Shown: piece after piece, positions 575 through 10,814 of the stretch
Numbering within the stretch: position 1 is the first letter of the stretch
Layout: every line of letters begins with the position of its first letter
From: Halopseudomonas pelagia
Lineage (GTDB): Bacteria; Pseudomonadota; Gammaproteobacteria; Pseudomonadales; Pseudomonadaceae
Assembly: GCF_009497895.1 (NCBI RefSeq)
Contig: NZ_CP033116.1
Coordinates: forward strand, 3,410,001 to 3,474,000
Length of the DNA stretch: 64,000 bases
Direction of reading: 5' to 3'
Position numbers and translations under genes: made by a program
The notes under the pieces: generated by a model
Told to the model about the DNA's origin: nothing
The model's database searches: none
What the model saw: the letters and a program-made list of their open reading frames with translations, nothing else

Positions 575-1702
575 TCAATCCTTACGCCACACAGTACGGT
601 TCACGTAGTCGGTGTAGCTGAGCACTACGCGCACTACCTGCAAGGAGACCGGGCCGCCTTCATAGTCCGGCACCAAAGGCGTGGTTCGCTTCCCTGCCAC
701 GTGCTGGCTGGTAATGACTTTGACCGCCGCCAGCACCGATTCCTTCTTCAGACCGCTCATGATCAGCGTGCCCTGGTCCATACCCTCTGGCCGCTCATGG
801 GCGTTGCGCAGCGTTACTGCAGGCAGGTTGAGCAGCGAGGCTTCCTCGGTGATAGTGCCGCTATCGGAGAGGACGCAAAATGCGGACATCTGCAACTTGA
901 TGTAATCCAGCAGGCCATAGGGTTTGACGAAGCGGATAAGGGGGTGATCCAACGACTCCCCCAGTGCTTCCAACCGTTTGCGGGTGCGCGGATGGGTGGA
1001 AACGATTACCGGATAGCCGTATTCGTCTGCCAACCCATTCAGCGTTGCGAGGAGGTCACGCAGGTTACTGGGCGTATCCACGTTTTCTTCGCGGTGAGTG
1101 CTGATAACGAAGTATTTGCCCTCACTCAGACCTTCTCGGGCCAGTACATCGGAACGCTCAATCTTTGGCATGTAGTACTCAAGCACTTCCTGCATATGCG
1201 AGCCGGTCTTGATGATGGTCTCAGGCCGTATGCCTTCGGCGATGAGATAGCGACGGGCATGCTCGGTAAGCACCATGTTGATGTCAGAGAGATGGTCCAG
1301 CACCTTCCTATTGAGCTCTTCCGGTACCCGCTGATCAAAGCAGCGATTGCCTGCTTCCATATGGAAAACCGGGATCTTGCGACGCTTGGCAGAAATAACC
1401 GCCAAACAGGTGTTGGTATCGCCGTATAACAGAAGAGCATCAGGTTGCTCGAGCTCAAACACCTCATCCGCCTTGGCGATCACTTCTGCGATGGTCTTCG
1501 CTGCGGTATCTCCGGCAGCACCGAGAAAGTGATCTGGCTTTCGAATTTCCAGATCGTCGAAGAACACCTGATTGAGTTCGAAGTCGTAGTTTTGCCCTGA
1601 ATGTACGAGGACGTGGTTAACCTGCTTATCCAGCTCGGCGATCACACGGCTCATCTTGATCAGCTCAGGGCGGGTGCCGACCAATGTCATAACTTTAAGC
1701 AC
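575..1702 (-). CDS. UDP-N-acetylhexosamine 2-epimerase, non-hydrolysing (WbjD/FnlC/QnlB type)
   Basis: A 375-residue protein of the WecB/Epimerase_2 fold, the usual length of the family. It opens with GTRPELIKMSRVIAEL and contains HMEAGNRCFDQRVPEELNR and the STHREEN segment typical of UDP-GlcNAc 2-epimerases. Placed with a 5-epimerising 4,6-dehydratase and a reductase, the expected reaction is C2 epimerisation of a UDP-2-acetamido-2,6-dideoxy-L-hexose, the last step of L-FucNAc or L-QuiNAc nucleotide synthesis in the cytoplasm. Its start overlaps the end of the dehydratase gene by 8 bases, so the two are probably translationally coupled. Which sugar results depends on the reductase (see 2736-3593). 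Confidence 0.9.
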   Translation of the reverse strand: MLKVMTLVGTRPELIKMSRVIAELDKQVNHVLVHSGQNYDFELNQVFFDDLEIRKPDHFLGAAGDTAAKTIAEVIAKADEVFELEQPDALLLYGDTNTCLAVISAKRRKIPVFHMEAGNRCFDQRVPEELNRKVLDHLSDINMVLTEHARRYLIAEGIRPETIIKTGSHMQEVLEYYMPKIERSDVLAREGLSEGKYFVISTHREENVDTPSNLRDLLATLNGLADEYGYPVIVSTHPRTRKRLEALGESLDHPLIRFVKPYGLLDYIKLQMSAFCVLSDSGTITEEASLLNLPAVTLRNAHERPEGMDQGTLIMSGLKKESVLAAVKVITSQHVAGKRTTPLVPDYEGGPVSLQVVRVVLSYTDYVNRTVWRKD

Positions 1703-2705
1703 TGAGCTGCTCCTGAATGTAATCCAGTTTTAGCAGCACATCTTTGATGCCCTGAACGCTCAAGCGCTCGGTGTTGTGCGAGGTATAGTCATCCTGCGCA
1801 GATATATCCAACTCACCTTCCACAAAAAATTTCTTGTAGTTCAAGTCGCGGTTGTCTGCCGGAATGCGGTAATAACGATCCATATCTTCGGCCTTGGCCA
1901 TCTCCTCGCGAGAAATCAGCGACTCATACAATTTCTCGCCATGCCGGGTGCCGATAATATTGATCGGGTTATCAAAGGAGAACAGCTCTTTGAGCGCCTG
2001 AGCCAGATCAGCCACCGTGGAGGCGGGCGCCTTTTGCACAAAGATATCGCCTTGCTCTGCGTGCTCAAACGCATGCAATACCAGATCGACTGAATCTTCC
2101 AGCGACATTAGAAAGCGGGTCATGTTCGGGTCGGTGACCGTGAGCGGCTCGCCGCTCTGGAGCTGGCTGACGAACAGTGGAATTACCGAGCCGCGCGAAG
2201 CCATCACGTTCCCGTAGCGAGTCGCACAAATAACGGGGCCTGACTCTGGGATCATGCGCGATTTAGCAACTACGAGCTTCTCAGACATCGCTTTGGAGAT
2301 GCCCATGGCATTGATCGGATATACGGCCTTATCGGTACTGAGTACCACTACTCGCTTGACACCGGTGGCAATCGCCGCGTTCAGCACATTCTCAGTCCCT
2401 AGAATATTGGTTTTGACCGCTTCCATCGGATAAAACTCGCAGGAAGGCACCTGCTTCAGTGCTGCGGCATGAAATATATAATCAACACCGACCATAGCCT
2501 GGGACACACTGGTGTAATCACGCACATCGCCTATGTAGAACTTGACCTTGTCGTTGGCCAGAGCGATGCGCATGTCTTCCTGCTTCTTCTCGTCCCGGCT
2601 GAATACCCGAATTTCCTTCACATCGGTATCGAGAAAGCGCTTTAACACGGTATTACCAAAGGAGCCGGTGCCACCGGTAATCATTAATACTTTGTTATCG
2701 AACAT
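1695..2705 (-). CDS. UDP-GlcNAc 4,6-dehydratase, 5-epimerising (WbjB/FnlA/CapE type)
   Basis: First enzyme of the L-FucNAc/L-QuiNAc branch: it converts UDP-GlcNAc to a 4-keto-6-deoxy sugar and inverts C5. The protein has the Rossmann motif TGGTGSFGNTV near its start and the STDKAVYPINAMGISKAMSEK region (written here as STDKAVYPINAMGISK plus AMSEK), in which Met replaces the usual catalytic Tyr before the Lys, a hallmark of the FnlA/CapE/PseB subgroup. I chose the ATG at 2705 over a GTG 15 bases upstream, because that GTG sits inside the GGTGGG stretch that would serve as ribosome binding site, and family members begin MFDNK. It follows the reductase gene by 30 bases and overlaps the 2-epimerase gene. 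Confidence 0.9.
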   Translation of the reverse strand: MFDNKVLMITGGTGSFGNTVLKRFLDTDVKEIRVFSRDEKKQEDMRIALANDKVKFYIGDVRDYTSVSQAMVGVDYIFHAAALKQVPSCEFYPMEAVKTNILGTENVLNAAIATGVKRVVVLSTDKAVYPINAMGISKAMSEKLVVAKSRMIPESGPVICATRYGNVMASRGSVIPLFVSQLQSGEPLTVTDPNMTRFLMSLEDSVDLVLHAFEHAEQGDIFVQKAPASTVADLAQALKELFSFDNPINIIGTRHGEKLYESLISREEMAKAEDMDRYYRIPADNRDLNYKKFFVEGELDISAQDDYTSHNTERLSVQGIKDVLLKLDYIQEQLSA

Positions 2706-2735
2706 AAATAGCCCACCCACTAGAAAAATAGAAAA

Positions 2736-3593
2736 TCAACGTTGCTCGCGCATTAATCTGACCAACTCAGGCCAGGTCGGAGGTACATAACCGGTAGCTT
2801 GACGAAATCGTGATGAGTCCAGTGAGCGATCAATCCGGACCTTATCATCTGCCGAAATCTGAATATCATGCTCATAAACCTCAGCAACCAGCCTGAGCAA
2901 CGACAGTTTGTCGATGGGCTCTACCGACACATGGTAAAGCCCCTGTAACTCAGGGTGAGGAATCACATAGTCCTTCATTACTCGCGCCATTTCGACTGTT
3001 GGCAACCCAGAAAAAATCGCTTTCGCATATCCTTTGACTGGCCCCGCCTGGGCGAGAAACCAGTCAATCAAAGAGAAATGGGTGCCCTGCTCATGGCCAA
3101 TAATTGATGTGCGCAAAGTGACTGCATGGGGTATCTCATGGAGTTCACCAATAAATTTGGATTTGCCATAAAGATCCTCTGCGTCCGAGACATCAGATTC
3201 AACGTACCCACCCTCTTTGCCGGAAAACACACAATCTGTGCTCACATGAATCAGCCGAGCGCCTGCCAATCCGCAGAGTTTGGCTAAACGATGTGGCAGC
3301 ATGGCATTAATCGGCAAAGCCGAAAGCGGATCTTTAGCATCAGACAGCTGCTTGATCAGGCCTACACAGTTAATGACGACCTCTGGCCGGACACGCGTAA
3401 GCACATGCACCAGCGCATCCTGGTCCAGAACATCCACCCCCTGAAGCAGACGCTGCCGGTGCGGCTCGGCAAAATGTCCAAGCCCACTGGCACTGCGCAG
3501 CGTGCCCCATACTTCGAACTCAGGATCCTGGCTAAAGGTCCTGAATACTGCACTGCCGAGCATTCCCGTAACGCCTAATATCAATACACGCAC
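2736..3593 (-). CDS. RmlD-like SDR sugar reductase (WbvR/QnlA-like)
   Basis: A 285-residue protein of the RmlD substrate-binding family: Rossmann motif GVTGMLGSAV at residues 7-16, STDCVFSGKEGG around residue 117 and the YGKSK active-site motif around residue 142. In the L-FucNAc pathway the matching enzyme (FnlB/WbjC/CapF) is a roughly 370-residue SDR with a C-terminal cupin domain that performs C3 epimerisation. This protein stops after the SDR part. In Vibrio cholerae O37 and some E. coli O types a short RmlD-like reductase (WbvR/QnlA) leads to UDP-L-RhaNAc and then UDP-L-QuiNAc. I therefore favour an L-QuiNAc or L-RhaNAc pathway. The gene begins 2 bases after the stop of the glycosyltransferase gene. 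Confidence 0.82.
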   Translation of the reverse strand: MRVLILGVTGMLGSAVFRTFSQDPEFEVWGTLRSASGLGHFAEPHRQRLLQGVDVLDQDALVHVLTRVRPEVVINCVGLIKQLSDAKDPLSALPINAMLPHRLAKLCGLAGARLIHVSTDCVFSGKEGGYVESDVSDAEDLYGKSKFIGELHEIPHAVTLRTSIIGHEQGTHFSLIDWFLAQAGPVKGYAKAIFSGLPTVEMARVMKDYVIPHPELQGLYHVSVEPIDKLSLLRLVAEVYEHDIQISADDKVRIDRSLDSSRFRQATGYVPPTWPELVRLMREQR

Positions 3594-3595
3594 AA

Positions 3596-4825
3596 CTAGC
3601 GCTCCTTACGTTGCGTATCAAGAATTTCAACCAGGCGTGTTACCTGACTGCTCATCTCGAAGTTTTCATAAAAATAGGCTTTACCCGCCTCGCCCATGGC
3701 TTGCAATTCTGCGGCTGGTAAATTCTTCATAGTGTAGATAAGCGCTGCAAGTGCGGACGGATCCTCAGGCTCGCAGGCTCTGCCCGCCCCCGCCTCAATC
3801 ACCACGTGCGCGCCCTCTCCCCGCAGCGATGCGATAATCGGCCGGCCCGCGGCAAGATAAGCCTGGATCTTGCTGGGTATTGTCTGAGCGAAAATAGCCT
3901 CATCTTTCAGCGACACCAGTAGCGCACCCGCACGTGCAAATATGAGGGGCATCGCCTCTATGGGGAAGCGTCCGGGCAGGAGTAAATTGTCTAGTCGATG
4001 CAATGTCTTTTGCTCTTGCAACCAGGCCAGGCGGCTACCGCTGCCAACCAGAACTAAACGGATACCTTCGTATTGTTCAAGTTTTTTGGCTGTTTCAACC
4101 AACGTCTCGAGTGACTGGGCTGTACCTAGGTTACCAGCGAACACAACACAGAAATTCTGCTCCAGCTCTACTAATAAATCTGCGGGGAGCTGTGCCACTG
4201 CCGAAGATAGCGCCTCTACGTCTATTGAATTGGGGTAATAAACAATCTTCTCCCGCCGCGTATACCGCGCAATCGGCTCGACGAACGCTTTGGATTGAAC
4301 CAGCAGCGTGTCGCAGTTAGCGTATATGGCTTTCACCAACTGGCCAATTCCTTTGAGGAGATAAGGTTGTTTAACAAAACCAGTGGCTGACAGGCTTTCT
4401 GGCCACAGATCTTGAACCCAGACAGCAAGATGAGCTTTCTTGAGCCATTTGAGTGGGATGGCCGGAATCACTTGGGTAATGGGAGAGGGAGCGAAAACCA
4501 ATATGGCGTCGAACTCCCGGTTCCTGAGCAACCATGGGCAAAAGACGAGCCCCGAGATAACAAACGAAAGGTAATTGAAAATCAGGTTTTTCGCGCCGCC
4601 TTTACCTCGCGGCCAAAGCGGGACCCGCAAAAGCTCCACGCCCCCCTCGAACAAGTCGTGCTGAACTCCACCGGCCTGATACCCCGAAAAAATCTGTCCG
4701 TCAGGATAATTTGGCTTTCCTGTTACAACCAGGACCTCATGGCCCTGCTTGACCAGCTCTCGCACGACGTCACTAATAATGAAACTCTCAGGCCAAAAGT
4801 ATTGGGTAACAAGCAGTATCCTCAC
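3596..4825 (-). CDS. Glycosyltransferase family 4, WbuB-like (L-FucNAc/L-QuiNAc transferase)
   Basis: A 409-residue GT-B glycosyltransferase. The start MRILLVTQYFWPESF and the segments VWVQDLWPESLSATGF, VFAGNLGTAQSLETL and YLAAGRPIIASLRGEG match the WbuB/WcaI-like branch of family 4, which in E. coli follows fnlABC or qnlAB and transfers the L-sugar made by the adjacent enzymes to the lipid-linked O-unit at the inner face of the cytoplasmic membrane. The tight link (2-base gap) to the RmlD-like reductase gene fits that role. Codon and base use are closer to the genome average than in the AT-rich genes upstream, so the pathway block and the variable block may have separate histories. The exact acceptor is not known. 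Confidence 0.85.
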   Translation of the reverse strand: MRILLVTQYFWPESFIISDVVRELVKQGHEVLVVTGKPNYPDGQIFSGYQAGGVQHDLFEGGVELLRVPLWPRGKGGAKNLIFNYLSFVISGLVFCPWLLRNREFDAILVFAPSPITQVIPAIPLKWLKKAHLAVWVQDLWPESLSATGFVKQPYLLKGIGQLVKAIYANCDTLLVQSKAFVEPIARYTRREKIVYYPNSIDVEALSSAVAQLPADLLVELEQNFCVVFAGNLGTAQSLETLVETAKKLEQYEGIRLVLVGSGSRLAWLQEQKTLHRLDNLLLPGRFPIEAMPLIFARAGALLVSLKDEAIFAQTIPSKIQAYLAAGRPIIASLRGEGAHVVIEAGAGRACEPEDPSALAALIYTMKNLPAAELQAMGEAGKAYFYENFEMSSQVTRLVEILDTQRKER

Positions 4826-4914: not shown

Positions 4915-5979
4915 TCAATTATCCAAGCGCTTCAGCGCTTGCGTGTAGATTTCCAAATATTTGCCAACCATTGCATTGATCGAAAAAATTTCTTTGGCTT
5001 TTTTCTTTGCTAACCCTTGCTGATTGGTACCCGCCCTAATCTCATCTATTATTGTAAGCAGGCCTTCGATATCATCCAACTTAAAGAAGGCAACCTCAGA
5101 TCCATCAAACATCTCGCGGAAAACAGGAATATCTGAACAAATAAGTACTGCATCTGATAAAGCCGCTTCAACTAGCGAAATACCAAACCCTTCACGTCGG
5201 GAAGGGATAATATACGCATCAAAATATTGATTATACGCGTACGCATAAACTGTGAATGGTATAAAAATGCAACGCAATTCAACGTCTAGTTCCTTAGCAA
5301 GCGACATTAACGACTCGGTCTCTGGCCCAGAGCCTATAATAACCGCACCTAGCTCTTTGCTTCGGTGTACAAGCCGAACAATTTGATCCAGCCCTTTACC
5401 CTTAGTCTGATTACAATAGGTGCCCAACACAAAAAGATTATTTTGTTTAAGCAATGCTGCAGCATTGACAACTTTCGCATCCAACTGCATGAGGGATACA
5501 TCGGCTAAAGCCACACCATTATATACAAACTCGACAGTAGAGCCGGGCAACAGCTTCTTATAATAATTAGCTGCATCACGTGTTAAACAAACAACTCTGT
5601 CCTGTTTTCGCCACGCCCACAACCAAAGCCGAGTAACAAAAAATGAAGCTAGTTTGCCGTGATAGTTTTCAAGCTCCTCTTTAACATAATTATGCACTGT
5701 AGAAACACACACACACTTTATTCGCTTACGATTAACAGCAACATATAGGTCCGGGCGCAAATTATGGGAGTGCAACACGTCGTACTTGGAAAAATCTATC
5801 TTATCAAAAAAGTTAACTTTAAATACAGCGCACCCAATAGGCGCCGGGCGCTCCACCAGATCGTCAAAATAAAGAATATCGACTTCGTGCCCTGCAGATA
5901 CCAAACCATCAGCGATATTAAATGCAACTGTTATCGTGGCTGAACGACTAAGCGAAGGTAACAAAACAGCGATTTTCAC
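4915..5979 (-). CDS. Glycosyltransferase family 4
   Basis: A 354-residue GT-B enzyme with an N-terminal MKIAVLLPSLSRSA strand, a GTYCNQTKGKGLDQIV donor-domain entry and the EX7E-type motif in SRREGFGISLVEA near residues 258-270. It should add one sugar to the undecaprenyl-linked O-unit from a nucleotide-sugar donor in the cytoplasm. It is AT-rich compared with the genes on both sides of the cluster, as usual for horizontally exchanged O-antigen genes. An 89-base AT-rich spacer separates it from the WbuB-like gene downstream, and 38 bases separate it from the family 2 gene upstream. Donor and acceptor cannot be read from the sequence. Confidence 0.85.
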   Translation of the reverse strand: MKIAVLLPSLSRSATITVAFNIADGLVSAGHEVDILYFDDLVERPAPIGCAVFKVNFFDKIDFSKYDVLHSHNLRPDLYVAVNRKRIKCVCVSTVHNYVKEELENYHGKLASFFVTRLWLWAWRKQDRVVCLTRDAANYYKKLLPGSTVEFVYNGVALADVSLMQLDAKVVNAAALLKQNNLFVLGTYCNQTKGKGLDQIVRLVHRSKELGAVIIGSGPETESLMSLAKELDVELRCIFIPFTVYAYAYNQYFDAYIIPSRREGFGISLVEAALSDAVLICSDIPVFREMFDGSEVAFFKLDDIEGLLTIIDEIRAGTNQQGLAKKKAKEIFSINAMVGKYLEIYTQALKRLDN

Positions 5980-6017: not shown

Positions 6018-6908
6018 TCATTTGTACCGCATTAACGAAGTACATGACGACAGTATGCGCTTTATTGAATAGCCACTTATAACAGTCACGAAAGACAATG
6101 CGAATGCCTTGAGTAAGCGTCTCGTCCCTACCGAAACACGGCCCGACCTAAGATGCAGGCAGCCCGAAAATATATATGCTGACGCTAGAAAGCGATTATA
6201 TCGAAAGCCTTCTACAGCCCCAGACTTTTTAAGCGATACTGCCACATTAATCGACTCGTCAGCTTTGACAGAATCTGAGACAGCATGAGTTGTTGAATTG
6301 GCGTGAACTCTAAATGAAGCAAGAACTTCATCATGAAACACAAAATTTGCCTTGTTAATCAGCCGAAGCCAAAATTCAAAATCCGGTATTTGCCTGATGT
6401 CAGTGCGCCAACCACCCGAGCGATCAAATAGACCTCTTGAAAAAATTGCACCTGGACCCACAGGACAATAAAACCGCTCAACAATACTGTGCTTGTCAGT
6501 AAAAAGTGGGCTTACATTCTTTATTGGCGCACCTTTAAAATCAATCAACTTGTACTTCGGATATATGACCAAGTCCCCGTTAAATCTCTCCGCCTCATCC
6601 AGCAGAATTCTAATAGCGTTTCTATCCAAAAGATCGTCAGCACTTAAGTAAGACAAGTACTTTCCAGTAGCTTTACTCCAGCCGAAATTTAGTGCATCGG
6701 ACTGTCCGCCGTTGGCCTTACTGAAAACAGTAATCCTGTTTGAGAACTCATTACAGACTTCGACGGTACGATCTATTGAGCCATCATCAACGACGATGCA
6801 CTCAACATGCTCGTAACTTTGATCAAGTATGGACACTAAAGTATCACGGATATATTGCTCTCCGTTATATACAGGCACGACTATGGTCACAACGACAGGT
6901 GAAATCAT
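6018..6908 (-). CDS. Glycosyltransferase family 2
   Basis: A 296-residue GT-A enzyme. The N-terminal VTIVVPVYNGEQYI and VDDGSIDRT segments, the SKANGGQSDALNFG segment and the metal-binding SADD (in place of DXD, near residue 93) are standard for family 2 inverting transferases, and PDFEFWLRL near residue 170 resembles the ED/QxxRW-type catalytic region. The C-terminal 40 residues are hydrophobic and may bind the membrane. It lies 3 bases downstream of wzy and is AT-rich, so it belongs to the strain-specific part of the O-antigen cluster. The sugar it transfers is unknown. Confidence 0.85.
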   Translation of the reverse strand: MISPVVVTIVVPVYNGEQYIRDTLVSILDQSYEHVECIVVDDGSIDRTVEVCNEFSNRITVFSKANGGQSDALNFGWSKATGKYLSYLSADDLLDRNAIRILLDEAERFNGDLVIYPKYKLIDFKGAPIKNVSPLFTDKHSIVERFYCPVGPGAIFSRGLFDRSGGWRTDIRQIPDFEFWLRLINKANFVFHDEVLASFRVHANSTTHAVSDSVKADESINVAVSLKKSGAVEGFRYNRFLASAYIFSGCLHLRSGRVSVGTRRLLKAFALSFVTVISGYSIKRILSSCTSLMRYK

Positions 6909-6911
6909 ATT

Positions 6912-7994
6912 CTAATCACTATATCGATTAAACTGCTCAAGTTGGTCTTGACTCATATTATCATAAGGAATTGACTGCCAATCATAAACCAAGTCCATAC
7001 GCGTATTATTTTTAATCGCCAAGTTAGCAAAAAGCAAAATGTATATAAAAACAAAACCACAGCGCACGACCAAGCTTCTATTAGACTTGAATATCGCCGC
7101 TACTATAAATGGATACACACTGGTATAAAACTCGAGCACCCTCAAAGGAATAATAGGTACGAAGAAGAATAACAAGTAAAAACTCACACCGAAAAGAACA
7201 GCTTTAATACATAAACGATCAAATCCAACAATTTCGCTATCCTTCTGTCTCATGGCGAACAACGCTGTTAACAGCATGACGATTGCATATAGATTTAGTT
7301 GCTTAGCGGTCAACGATTCAGACCCCATTGCCGCTAAATAGACATCAATCCTTTCAAAACCAAACCGCATGAGTGGAATTGAAGTACTTGCAGCAACAAG
7401 ATAACCAAGCACCGCTGAAAAGCACACCACTACCACCAGGGTTTTTATTTTAATGAGCTTCAGAAGCGGTATAACTAACGCCAGAACGGAGGAGACATGA
7501 AAAAACGTGGCCAATGCCAGCAATAGAGCTGCATGAACCCTTTTCCCGGATGAGTACTCGGAAAGCGACCACCAGCATATTGCGATTGCCATGGATGCTC
7601 TTAGCTGCGTCATCTCTCCTAAAAAAAACCCGTAACAGGCATAGCTAAATATGGAGACGCCAACCCATGCGGAATGCTTATAAAATAATTTGAACTTAAT
7701 AATAATACTTAAAGTTACATAAAGCAGGATAACCGCCTCAAATGCGTAATCTCCTAACAACTTGCCTGCCGCGAGAGAAACAAGCGAAAAACTTTTTTCG
7801 AAACTACCCTCTGCACAATTTGACTCTATCGCACACAAAAAATATTTTTGATACCCGTAGTAATCCCAAGAACCTTCTTTTGTAAAAAAAGAAAACAATA
7901 TGAAGGCTATCGCCACTACAAAAACGATATCGAGCTTTGATCGTCGAACAAATGAAAGCAGCGATGCAATCAAAATAAATACTATATACTGCAC
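6912..7994 (-). CDS. wzy: O-antigen polymerase, EpsG-like (Wzy)
   Basis: A 360-residue integral membrane protein with about ten hydrophobic segments and no soluble catalytic domain. The early FFTKEGSWDYYGYQKYF loop, the GEMTQLRASMAIAICWWSL stretch and TFFHVSSVLAL (a histidine after a membrane segment) are the pattern of the EpsG/Wzy polymerase family. Located between the flippase gene and the glycosyltransferase genes, it is the best candidate for the enzyme that polymerises O-units in the periplasm. Its start overlaps the end of wzx by 13 bases. Wzy proteins diverge so strongly that the assignment rests on topology and context as much as on motifs. The gene is among the most AT-rich in the window. 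Confidence 0.78.
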   Translation of the reverse strand: MQYIVFILIASLLSFVRRSKLDIVFVVAIAFILFSFFTKEGSWDYYGYQKYFLCAIESNCAEGSFEKSFSLVSLAAGKLLGDYAFEAVILLYVTLSIIIKFKLFYKHSAWVGVSIFSYACYGFFLGEMTQLRASMAIAICWWSLSEYSSGKRVHAALLLALATFFHVSSVLALVIPLLKLIKIKTLVVVVCFSAVLGYLVAASTSIPLMRFGFERIDVYLAAMGSESLTAKQLNLYAIVMLLTALFAMRQKDSEIVGFDRLCIKAVLFGVSFYLLFFFVPIIPLRVLEFYTSVYPFIVAAIFKSNRSLVVRCGFVFIYILLFANLAIKNNTRMDLVYDWQSIPYDNMSQDQLEQFNRYSD

Positions 7995-9442
7995 TTAGAA
8001 CTCTCTGTCTTTCTAACAAATTCTTTATATTCACGAAAAGCAACAAGAGCAACACACAAACCCACCATTGCCACTACAATTATTCGTGTACTTATGCTTT
8101 CAATAATGCCAGAGCCAAAAGCAATTGCAGTTACTAACACGCAAATATAAATGCGAGCGCCAGTGAACGACTTTAAAGACCATTTCTGCAAATATATACA
8201 GGCGCCAAACATTAGCGCCGTATCAACTATCATTCTAATCAACCAAGCAATAGCCGCCCCCAACAAGCCGAACTCTGATGTCATAAACCAAACCATTATG
8301 ATAAAAAAGGGAAATTGAAGACAATGTATCAGCGCTGTTACCCGCGGAGAGCCTGCGCTTTGTATCAATGTGTATGGAATATGCGCCAGGCAATTTATAA
8401 GTATGCCAAACGTGAAGATTTGCATGATAATGGAGCTTTCAACAGCGAAGCGTTCTCCAACCCATAAGTTTAGAATCTCAGGTGTAAAATTAAAAATAAA
8501 TGCCGTTATGGGCAACATAACCAAAAATAAATAATATATCGCCCTAGAGAACATATCCCTTACCTGACTGCCATCTACTGCAATTTGTGCAGCAAAGGCC
8601 GGGAAGAGAACAGCCGTTAGAGCTCCAGGCACAATCCATAATCTTAAGATAATTTCCTGCGGAGTAGTGTAATAAGCAACGGCGGCCGCTGAAACGACGC
8701 CACCTATAATGAAACGGTCCACATACCCCATAAAAGGACTGATCACGTTACTCAGTGTCATCCACCCTCCCGATATACAAAGAGGCCTCAAGTAATCTTT
8801 ACTAATTTTGAGTTTGCCATGGGAGTCAGGAAGAACACGCCACGCAAACCAGGCATGTACTAGACATGCTGCGATACGGCCGAACGCTAAAACGCCGGTA
8901 ATCATATCCAGTCGGGTCGAGCCATAAAGTAATACGCAAACAGGACCTAAAAAGGTGAATAGCCCCATTGGCAATCGAATCAAATTTATAATACCAAACG
9001 CATTTTTCGCCTCTAGAATTCCTCGAAAGCCAGAGGTTAAGACTATGGCCGGCATGGCAAACGCCATAATCAGAACTGCGTTAATAGCCTCCTGCCGGTC
9101 AGGTACCGACTGTATTAGCCCGACGCCCCAAGGCGCTAATAAAAACATTACACCACCAGCGACCACGCCCAGCGCCGCCATTAAAACCGTAGCAGTTGCT
9201 ACTAACGCCCCCACTTTCTTACTGTCGCCTTCAGTAAGAGCGACGGCCAGTAACTGTGTCAGCGCACGCCCCAATCCTAGGTCAAATAACCCAAAATAAC
9301 TAACCACGGCCCATATCAAAGTCAACAGGCCAAATCGGGCGGCACCTAACTCGCTTATAAGAATAGGTATACAAAACACGGCTACAATCAGAGGCAGACC
9401 GAGACCTAACAGGTTATATATGGTGTGCCTTGCAAATTTCAT
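7982..9442 (-). CDS. wzx: O-antigen flippase (Wzx), MOP/polysaccharide transporter family
   Basis: A 486-residue membrane protein with about 12-14 hydrophobic segments. The N-terminus (GLGLPLIVAVFCIPILI followed by LGAARFGLLTLIW and the FDLGLGRALTQ segment) is characteristic of the Wzx/RfbX branch of the MOP superfamily. It should move undecaprenyl-diphosphate-linked O-units from the cytoplasmic to the periplasmic face, before Wzy polymerisation. It is the first gene after wzz, from which a 108-base AT-rich spacer separates it, and it overlaps wzy. AT-rich composition agrees with its position in the variable block. Confidence 0.88.
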   Translation of the reverse strand: MKFARHTIYNLLGLGLPLIVAVFCIPILISELGAARFGLLTLIWAVVSYFGLFDLGLGRALTQLLAVALTEGDSKKVGALVATATVLMAALGVVAGGVMFLLAPWGVGLIQSVPDRQEAINAVLIMAFAMPAIVLTSGFRGILEAKNAFGIINLIRLPMGLFTFLGPVCVLLYGSTRLDMITGVLAFGRIAACLVHAWFAWRVLPDSHGKLKISKDYLRPLCISGGWMTLSNVISPFMGYVDRFIIGGVVSAAAVAYYTTPQEIILRLWIVPGALTAVLFPAFAAQIAVDGSQVRDMFSRAIYYLFLVMLPITAFIFNFTPEILNLWVGERFAVESSIIMQIFTFGILINCLAHIPYTLIQSAGSPRVTALIHCLQFPFFIIMVWFMTSEFGLLGAAIAWLIRMIVDTALMFGACIYLQKWSLKSFTGARIYICVLVTAIAFGSGIIESISTRIIVVAMVGLCVALVAFREYKEFVRKTESSKCSI

Positions 9443-9550: not shown

Positions 9551-10636
9551 TTAACGCTCACCAGTTTGTACTTCATGTTTGCGCCGCCGAATCGCGGCTC
9601 GAAATAATGCAACCAGACCAGCTAGCCCTCCACCCACTGTGATTCCGATCATCACGATATTTGCTTTTTGTGGTTTGACGGGGTTTTCAGATACCTCAGC
9701 AGCGCTATCCAGCGTGAATAACTGCACGAACTCCGGGATCGGATCGACCAGATTCAGCATGGCTATCTTCTGTTGAATGTCACGAAGTTCGCTTATAAAA
9801 GGATCATCATTTTCGCGAGCCTTAAGCAACGCAAGTTCGGCCCCAATTGCCTTTATTCCGTTAAGGAAAAGCATACTTCCATCGGAGACCTGAGCCGAGC
9901 CGGAAGAGCCGACTGATATCTGGGTGCGTCCACCCGTCACCTCGGGGCTTTGCAGCCCTATTGCTTCTGCGACCTTCAATGCTTCTTCCAACCGCGCGAC
10001 TCTATCAAGCCGTTCAGCTTTCGCCGTCATGCGGAGAGCGTGAATGTGCTCTTCAAACGCCCGGAGCTTGTTCGCTACCTGCGCACGCGTGTCCAGCTCC
10101 AAGTCACGGATAGAGCGTTTTGAAACCTCGGCTACGAAATCATTGGCAAACTTTGCCGCTAACTCAGGATCGCTCAAATGGACTCGGACCACGTAATTAT
10201 CTGGATTATTGCGCGCATCAGGCAGGTTAACCCTTAACACTCCACCCATACGTTCCATGAGGTTATCGCGTGTCCCGGTGATGCCCAACTGTTCGAGATA
10301 CGGTCTGTAGCGCTCTTCAAAAAACCACCGCCGGCTGGTCTGTGAATTTAGATTGCGGGTAAAGATCGAATAGGCTTCTTTGATATCTAATTCGTCGATT
10401 TCAGCTCTTTCCCTGCCCAAATTGACCGGAGCGATATCAGCTGCACGGGGCGGTATAACGCTAACAGTTGACTGATAAACCGGCGTTGCAAGAAACGCAT
10501 AACCAACCGCGATCAGCATAACTGCGACTGTAATGACTGCGATCAGGTACTTTTGTTGCCATAAATCCTGAGCCACGTCTAATAAATCGAGTTCATCATT
10601 ACTACTGTGTGGCGGCGTTTTCTTGATGGTCGTCAC
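9551..10636 (-). CDS. wzz: O-antigen chain length determinant Wzz
   Basis: A 361-residue inner-membrane polysaccharide co-polymerase. It has a first membrane segment at about residues 34-52 (YLIAVITVAVMLIAVGYAF), a large periplasmic part rich in charged helices (residues 60-310) and a second membrane segment preceded by the proline-rich ENPVKPQKANIVMIG motif, which is the Wzz signature. It sets the modal length of O-antigen chains with Wzy. As the first gene of the O-antigen operon it lies directly behind the ops-like element at 10677-10689, and its GC content is near the genome norm. Confidence 0.93.
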   Translation of the reverse strand: MTTIKKTPPHSSNDELDLLDVAQDLWQQKYLIAVITVAVMLIAVGYAFLATPVYQSTVSVIPPRAADIAPVNLGRERAEIDELDIKEAYSIFTRNLNSQTSRRWFFEERYRPYLEQLGITGTRDNLMERMGGVLRVNLPDARNNPDNYVVRVHLSDPELAAKFANDFVAEVSKRSIRDLELDTRAQVANKLRAFEEHIHALRMTAKAERLDRVARLEEALKVAEAIGLQSPEVTGGRTQISVGSSGSAQVSDGSMLFLNGIKAIGAELALLKARENDDPFISELRDIQQKIAMLNLVDPIPEFVQLFTLDSAAEVSENPVKPQKANIVMIGITVGGGLAGLVALFRAAIRRRKHEVQTGER

Positions 10637-10676
10637 ATTGGCTCCGATATGGTTGCAATAAATTATTCGTTCACAA

Positions 10677-10700
10677 GTACGCTACCGCCCCAAGATTAAT
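10677..10700 (-). promoter_or_regulatory. JUMPstart/ops-like element in the wzz leader
   Basis: Read on the minus strand the leader contains TTAATCTTGGGGCGGTAGCG followed by TAC. The 11-base core GGCGGTAGCGT is exactly the enterobacterial ops element, and the preceding bases match the 3' half of the JUMPstart sequence (TTAAGCCAGGGGCGGTAGCG) at about 18 of 21 positions. In enterobacteria this site pauses RNA polymerase and recruits RfaH, which allows transcription to continue through long polysaccharide operons. It is about 40 bases upstream of the wzz start, in the expected orientation. Whether this organism encodes RfaH cannot be seen here. Confidence 0.75.
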
Positions 10701-10784
10701 TGTCTGATTCTTGAAAACGGACATAACTGTGCGGTCATCCACCCGCACGTGGCGACCAAGGTGCGATCCACTTCAGCTTATTTC

Positions 10785-10814
10785 ACTATAGCGGATCACC
10801 TTGGCTTAACCCAA
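10785..10814 (-). promoter_or_regulatory. Candidate sigma-70 promoter of the O-antigen operon
   Basis: On the minus strand TTGGGT (10814-10809) and TATAGT (10790-10785) are separated by 18 bases. Initiation near 10778 would give a leader of about 140 bases that carries the ops-like element roughly 90 bases downstream of the start, a layout like that of enterobacterial JUMPstart operons. The -35 hexamer is imperfect, so this is tentative. Apart from this and the ops-like element, I see no gene in 10637-11208; short frames there have no coding character. Confidence 0.35.

Follow-up and report, generated by a model that had tools for sequence, protein, structure and literature searches.

The closest described relatives of the element analysed here are the JUMPstart leaders (RF01707) of the rfb and waaQ operons of E. 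coli K-12. JUMPstart contains a conserved stem-loop (PMC2864571; papers given by PMC number are cited from excerpts, to which all statements about them apply). In the E. coli structure, RfaH contacts ops only via the side chains of K10, H20, R23, and R73, and the validated E. coli ops sites share a G at position 12 (PMC5995543). With regard to the Pseudomonadaceae, RfaH is reported in ~40% of the family, with envelope genes as frequent neighbours (PMC7593976), and it lies beside exopolysaccharide or LPS loci (PMC5532660, PMC4465626). The excerpts of these three papers give no ops site for pseudomonads, whereas here the coupling of ops and RfaH was counted. None of the open-licence titles and abstract openings searched describes ops in pseudomonads, and the excerpt of PMC13015549 mentions neither pseudomonads nor integrons. 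The initial annotation, which called ops/RfaH control little described in pseudomonads, is right for ops but not for RfaH itself, which has been described there (PMC7593976).

The window, which is the whole stretch of 64,000 nucleotides analysed, holds a single copy of the exact 11-nt ops core GGCGGTAGCGT, even when one mismatch is allowed. It is in the sense of wzz, as had been proposed (Table 1). The minus-strand leader reads ...TTTTCAAGAATCAGACAATTAATCTTGGGGCGGTAGCGTACTTGTG... and reaches the GTG start of wzz (10636) 42 nt after the core. The flank had been said to match JUMPstart at about 18 of 21 positions, which is nearly right: over the last 21 positions, 17 agree with both E. coli K-12 leaders, and the full 24-nt span matches at 18/24 (rfb) and 19/24 (waaQ). 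Compared with the 12-nt ops GGCGGTAGCGTG, the window copy matches at 11/12 positions, with an A at position 12. In E. coli, G12C loses the U11 pause and keeps RfaH recruitment (PMC5995543). With its A12, the wzz leader probably supports weaker U11 pausing than a consensus site. Among the 28 JUMPstart-type sites of the genus (class A, below), A12 is unique to the window copy. The wzz-leader site of the nearest relative, G013, also has A12, is preceded by a T, and lies outside the 28-site set.

The 4.55-Mb chromosome holds 12 exact copies of the 11-mer, against 5 for the reversed control; the count of 12 corresponds to ~0.17 copies per 64 kb. The core with one more upstream G occurs six times in the genome and never in the control. 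Five of the 12 copies occupy sense-oriented leader positions: before wzz, directly behind rfaH, before glmS, and, twice, before cassette-like genes; the glmS copy (L018) qualifies once the glmS start is reassigned to the MCGIVG codon. Although the bare 11-mer is too common to inform, its placement and flank put the wzz-leader ops beyond chance. A phage collection searched with the leader gave no match.

Table 1. Features of the wzz leader and operon in the window (coordinates are window positions).
Feature	Position	Strand	Basis or remark
Candidate -10 box TATAGT	10785..10790	-	by eye; ~96 nt upstream of ops
JUMPstart-type hairpin	10688..10716	-	arms 10716..10709 and 10695..10688, 13-nt loop, 8/8 pairs
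ops core GGCGGTAGCGT	10679..10689	-	exact 11-mer, read from 10689 to 10679; position 12 (10678) is A
Candidate ribosome binding site GGAG before wzz	10642..10645	-	by eye
wzz, chain-length determinant, 361 aa, first gene after ops	9551..10636	-	PF02706
Flippase-like (Wzx)	7982..9442	-	PF13440/PF01943
EpsG family, polymerase-like (Wzy)	6912..7994	-	PF14897
Glycosyltransferase family 2	6018..6908	-	PF00535
Glycosyltransferase (group 1/4)	4915..5979	-	domain search
Glycosyltransferase (group 1/4)	3596..4825	-	domain search
RmlD-like sugar reductase	2736..3593	-	PF04321
Polysacc_synt_2 sugar dehydratase	1695..2720	-	PF02719
UDP-GlcNAc 2-epimerase family	575..1702	-	gene run continues past window start

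The element shares with those of E. coli K-12 the exact ops core and a place ahead of O-antigen/LPS genes, within the operon leader. Beyond the window start, the same-strand run continues with an NAD epimerase, a PF00953 initiating transferase, and a PglD_N protein, so that it comprises 12 genes over 12.7 kb, from wzz to chromosome position 3407965; we assume that it forms one transcript. After a 185-nt gap follow four sugar-metabolism genes (nucleotidyl transferase, UDP-sugar dehydrogenase, PGI, and phosphomannomutase). The initial annotation correctly placed wzz first in the operon, but its extent of 10 kb fell short, and the label Pseudomonas-like agrees with the membership of Halopseudomonas in the Pseudomonadaceae. 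In the leader, the candidate TATAGT box recurs before wzz of G013, with no matching -35 found by eye, and a promoter scan found no sigma-70-like promoter in the wzz leader.

Two proteins with a NusG domain are encoded in this genome: the housekeeping NusG and one RfaH, which exceeds two curated cut-offs (TIGR01955, 163.2 bits against 144.5; NF006534, 142 against 124). The gene for an RfaH/NusG paralogue that the proposed control calls for is thus present and separate from nusG. Among the nine loci returned, the protein shares 96% identity with the RfaH of Halopseudomonas laoshanensis and 85% with that of H. pelagia; an exact ops site follows rfaH in four of the nine (L025, L028, L030, and L033). 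The type strain of H. laoshanensis carries one site of the polysaccharide kind and one of the integron class. As in E. coli RfaH (PDB 2oug, 5ond, 6c6s), the DNA-contacting residues and most of the autoinhibition residues are kept: the alignment shows K10, R16, H20, R23, Q24, R73, I93, F130, and R138 conserved, while E48, an autoinhibitory contact in E. coli, is replaced by Q. Across 31 aligned RfaH proteins, K10, Q24, R73, F130, and R138 are invariant, whereas N replaces H20 in 21 proteins; at R23, 21 have N and two have K. A second type of RfaH, sharing 38-45% identity with the one encoded here, predominates in the genus; this genome has only the E. coli-like type. Genus RfaH proteins with N in place of H20 and R23 nonetheless adjoin exact ops sites.

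The rfaH gene is located 2.5 Mb from the wzz operon and has its own ops 261 nt downstream, followed by an outer-membrane and exopolysaccharide operon (BBP2_2, Wza-like, Wzc-like). This position of RfaH beside polysaccharide genes resembles that in P. stutzeri EPS273-M (PMC5532660) and Azotobacter (PMC4465626). E. coli rfaH, in contrast, acts only in trans (PMC7593976). A regulator gene beside its target operon is also typical of the operon-resident NusG paralogues UpxY, TaA, and LoaP, from which this RfaH differs in having putative unlinked targets as well; it scores below the cut-offs of the UpxY (76.5 against 100) and LoaP (57.8 against 125) models and above those for RfaH. The ops behind rfaH (L014:13690, minus strand; chromosome 898689) is without the JUMPstart hairpin (5/8 pairs). 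The third class-A ops of the genome, in the glmS leader (L018:9450, minus strand; chromosome 3391449), is 29 kb from the wzz site, and a second run of polysaccharide genes, with transferases and EpsG, comes after glmS.

In the genus, RfaH exceeds the cut-off in 29 of 37 genomes. All 130 GGGCGGTAGCGT sites were taken with their flanks and assigned to JUMPstart-type leaders (class A, 28), integron platforms (class B, 45), neighbourhoods of a second rfaH (5), coding positions (41), and others (11), by flank patterns that were set after inspecting the list, the class-A sites L014, L150, and L200 being added by name. Class-A sites share ~40 nt, roughly GTCCTCAAGAA-N3-GAC-N3-AAATCTTGGGGCGGTAGCGTGCCTGAA. 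Five sites (L178, L193, L227, L159, and L240) adjoin a second or partial rfaH and have an ORF of 156-159 aa after them, and three of them have AAAGG...CCTTT around ops. A leader-class site is present in 28 of the 29 RfaH-positive genomes; at a completeness of at least 95%, the count is 24/24 with RfaH against 0/4 without. Sites kept where RfaH was not found occur in G004 (two; 350 contigs), G026 (one; 81% complete), and G027 (one; 93% complete).

Matches to wzz below E 1e-15 were obtained in nine genomes including this one, and in eight of them (this genome, G005, G035, G029, G016, G022, G036, and G013) the exact core precedes the matched stretch by 39-74 nt, which bears out the expected conservation in related wzz leaders. 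The ninth, G020 (C21, L256), has a core with two mismatches, GGCGGTGGCGA, although it is RfaH-positive, and represents a natural decayed site. The wzz leader is immediately preceded by rfaH in G035, G016, G022, and G005. Core and hairpin are kept although full-length wzz matches are only 40-62% identical.

As in E. coli K-12, the adjoining hairpin has a G-rich 3' arm; in the window copy, this arm overlaps the first two G of ops. An 8-bp stem abutting ops was counted at 25/28 class-A sites against 0/58 control sites, the latter being all non-class-A sites inside any ORF of at least 80 aa and including some integron-class sites in spurious ORFs. The exceptions are L014 and L150, which represent the site behind the RfaH type of this genome, and L157. 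The same count gives 7/8 pairs in the E. coli rfb and waaQ leaders. An alignment of 24 rows, six of which are shifted by one position, has 93.8% of its stem cells paired, against 22-69% when slid. Covariation was weak, with 139 of 500 shuffles reaching the observed number of doubly changed pairs; RNAalifold did not pick the ops-adjoining hairpin and chose another small one inside ops; and single-strand folding energies are ordinary (z-score -0.46 for the window copy). Consequently, it is the count of 25/28 against 0/58 that carries the case for the hairpin.

The Rfam JUMPstart model (RF01707) gave no match to the window element at E up to 10. It scored 60 and 55.2 bits for the E. coli leaders and 25.6 and 24.7 bits for the class-A sites at L129 and L126 (cut-off 35), and found nothing at the window copy (L007), L018, or L205. 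The element is therefore not filed as a member of RF01707. It differs from the E. coli rfb and waaQ elements in having only 19-22 of 40 positions identical, a longer loop, and A12. The wzz-leader element is of JUMPstart architecture with diverged sequence. The JUMPstart/ops element of the initial annotation is confirmed, with the qualifications that it falls below the Rfam model and departs from the consensus at position 12.

The wzz-leader element is very probably the place where RfaH loads to transcribe the O-antigen operon, and the initial proposal that ops and RfaH control these genes is very likely right. This reading draws on the site and its position, its conserved flank, the cognate gene with its DNA-contacting residues, and the coupling of ops with RfaH across the genome and the family. 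By analogy with E. coli, we infer pausing, recruitment, antitermination, and translation coupling at this leader. RNA polymerase would transcribe ~100 nt of leader, form the hairpin, and reach ops, where the exposed non-template strand would recruit RfaH. RfaH would then displace NusG, shield the elongating complex from Rho, and couple it to ribosomes through wzz, wzx, wzy, and the transferases. We count against this reading A12, the Q in place of E48, the absence of an Rfam match, the decayed core of RfaH-positive G020, the sites kept in G004, G026, and G027, the promoter scan that found no sigma-70 promoter, and the RfaH type of this genome, which differs from the RfaH found beside JUMPstart sites in many relatives. 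It is unlikely, yet the best surviving alternative, that RfaH serves only the exopolysaccharide operon adjacent to rfaH and that the wzz-leader ops is a decaying relic of a horizontally acquired operon. The separate ops and outer-membrane/Wza/Wzc-like operon of rfaH, the A at position 12, and the occurrence of decay, as in G020, would fit such a history. However, every base read by RfaH is intact, core and hairpin persist across wzz proteins as divergent as those described above, and a third operon, that of the glmS leader (L018), carries the element too.

The loading-site reading is also supported by the distribution of ops in the family. In 119 Pseudomonadaceae genomes of at least 95% completeness, 77 with RfaH over the cut-off, GGGCGGTAGCGTG occurs 134 times; the copy in the window, with its A12, does not fit this pattern. 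There are 118 sites against 19 control sites in the 77 RfaH-positive genomes, 14 against 13 in the 40 without RfaH, and 2 against 0 in two genomes with a borderline RfaH. Any site at all is present in 63/77 genomes with and 13/40 without RfaH (Fisher 1.9e-7), and outside the genus in 49/63 and 13/38 (Fisher 1.9e-5), values that serve as guides only because the genomes are related. A same-strand ops lies at most 1 kb downstream of 44 of 97 RfaH matches (three of them below the cut-off), mostly at 76-290 nt and in 42/79 genomes. Around these 97 matches, no site was found on the opposite strand or upstream.

The surprise of the analysis is the set of ops sites before integron platforms, which make up 45 of the 130 genus sites and would be new. 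No open-licence title or abstract opening searched links RfaH or antitermination to integrons. At 17 of the 45 sites, an opposite-strand ORF ends at most 35 nt downstream of ops; compared by hand, 14 of these ORFs exceed the cut-off for the TIGR02249 integron integrase, two are fragments, and one (L164) is neither. Other sites follow housekeeping genes, among them purL (L016), which was identified by search, while valS, dnaE2, and aceB were named by eye. Up to ...AAATGTTA, four leaders of one type share ~80% identity, which falls to ~30% beyond, and nine of another type show the same drop at ...ATCACTGTTA. We take this edge to be the integron insertion point (attI/attC cleavage, G^TTRRRY), which would place ops in the conserved leader, at a distance of 200-330 nt before the G^TTA where cassettes insert, and in sense to whatever is captured.

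The genome studied here has two such platforms, L016:8141 (plus strand; chromosome 1219140) and L022:8069 (minus strand; chromosome 4051068), both with leaders ending at a G^TTA cassette insertion edge; an integron integrase over the cut-off was not found in it. At L016:9411-11540, a captured gene encodes a 709-aa ATPase with 59.3 bits to the anti-phage model NF053860 (cut-off 370) and 51.9 bits to Sll1717 (cut-off 75), perhaps a defence gene under ops. PADLOC returned nothing convincing for the cassette-platform genes (best E 0.00099).

A leader query found the 11-mer kept at 17 of 20 places in RfaH-positive genomes; the exceptions (L307, L292, and L308) keep the promoter-side part and have no ops. 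RfaH-less G018 carries C3G and G5A and G010 carries G5C; G004, where RfaH was not found, keeps the 11-mer. In a core-free census, with a query downstream of the core and 30 of 41 rows examined, the exact core was present at 16/23 platforms in RfaH-positive genomes and at 1/7 (G004) where RfaH was not found. Leaving out the incomplete G004 and G023, the comparison is 16/23 against 0/5 (Fisher 0.008), one of the five RfaH-less platforms (G002) ending at a contig edge. In complete RfaH-less genomes, the platform core is lost or mutated. Exceptions to an integron role of ops are L307, L292, and L308, the seven RfaH-positive platforms of the census that have no exact core, and the cores present in G004, G026, and G027. 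It seems somewhat more probable than the opposite that the Halopseudomonas RfaH regulon includes integron platforms and that the wzz-leader ops is one node of a "foreign gene" antitermination circuit. Such a circuit would consist of polysaccharide operons and captured cassettes, and each newly captured cassette would be read by an RfaH-loaded, Rho-resistant polymerase.

These substitutions also bear on a second alternative, that the wzz-leader element is only a pause site or RNA hairpin, acting together with NusG or ribosomes and independently of RfaH. Of the ops mutants studied in E. coli, G5A no longer recruited RfaH and C3G recruited it ~3-fold less, with the pause unaffected, G5C not being among them, and ops alone is a strong consensus pause (PMC5995543). 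The last point and the conserved hairpin adjoining ops would suit a pause of this kind, which we nevertheless consider very unlikely: sites drop to the control level in genomes without RfaH, and the substitutions in G018 and G010 fall on C3 and G5, two bases that RfaH reads and that pausing can do without. Chance occurrence of the 11-mer, for all its 12 copies against 5 in the reversed control, is ruled out for practical purposes by orthologous placement in 8/9 wzz leaders, the hairpin, and the 12-mer count of 6 against 0.

With RfaH loading at the wzz leader as the preferred reading, ops/RfaH control would turn from a mainly enterobacterial story into a family-wide system in the Pseudomonadaceae, and the pseudomonad O-antigen becomes a directly testable RfaH target. 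Natural losses of RfaH let the ops code be read, as sites disappear in genomes that lack it. Should the integron reading prove right, it would explain how long, polar arrays of promoterless cassettes are transcribed to their ends, and it would link gene capture to a fold-switching elongation factor.
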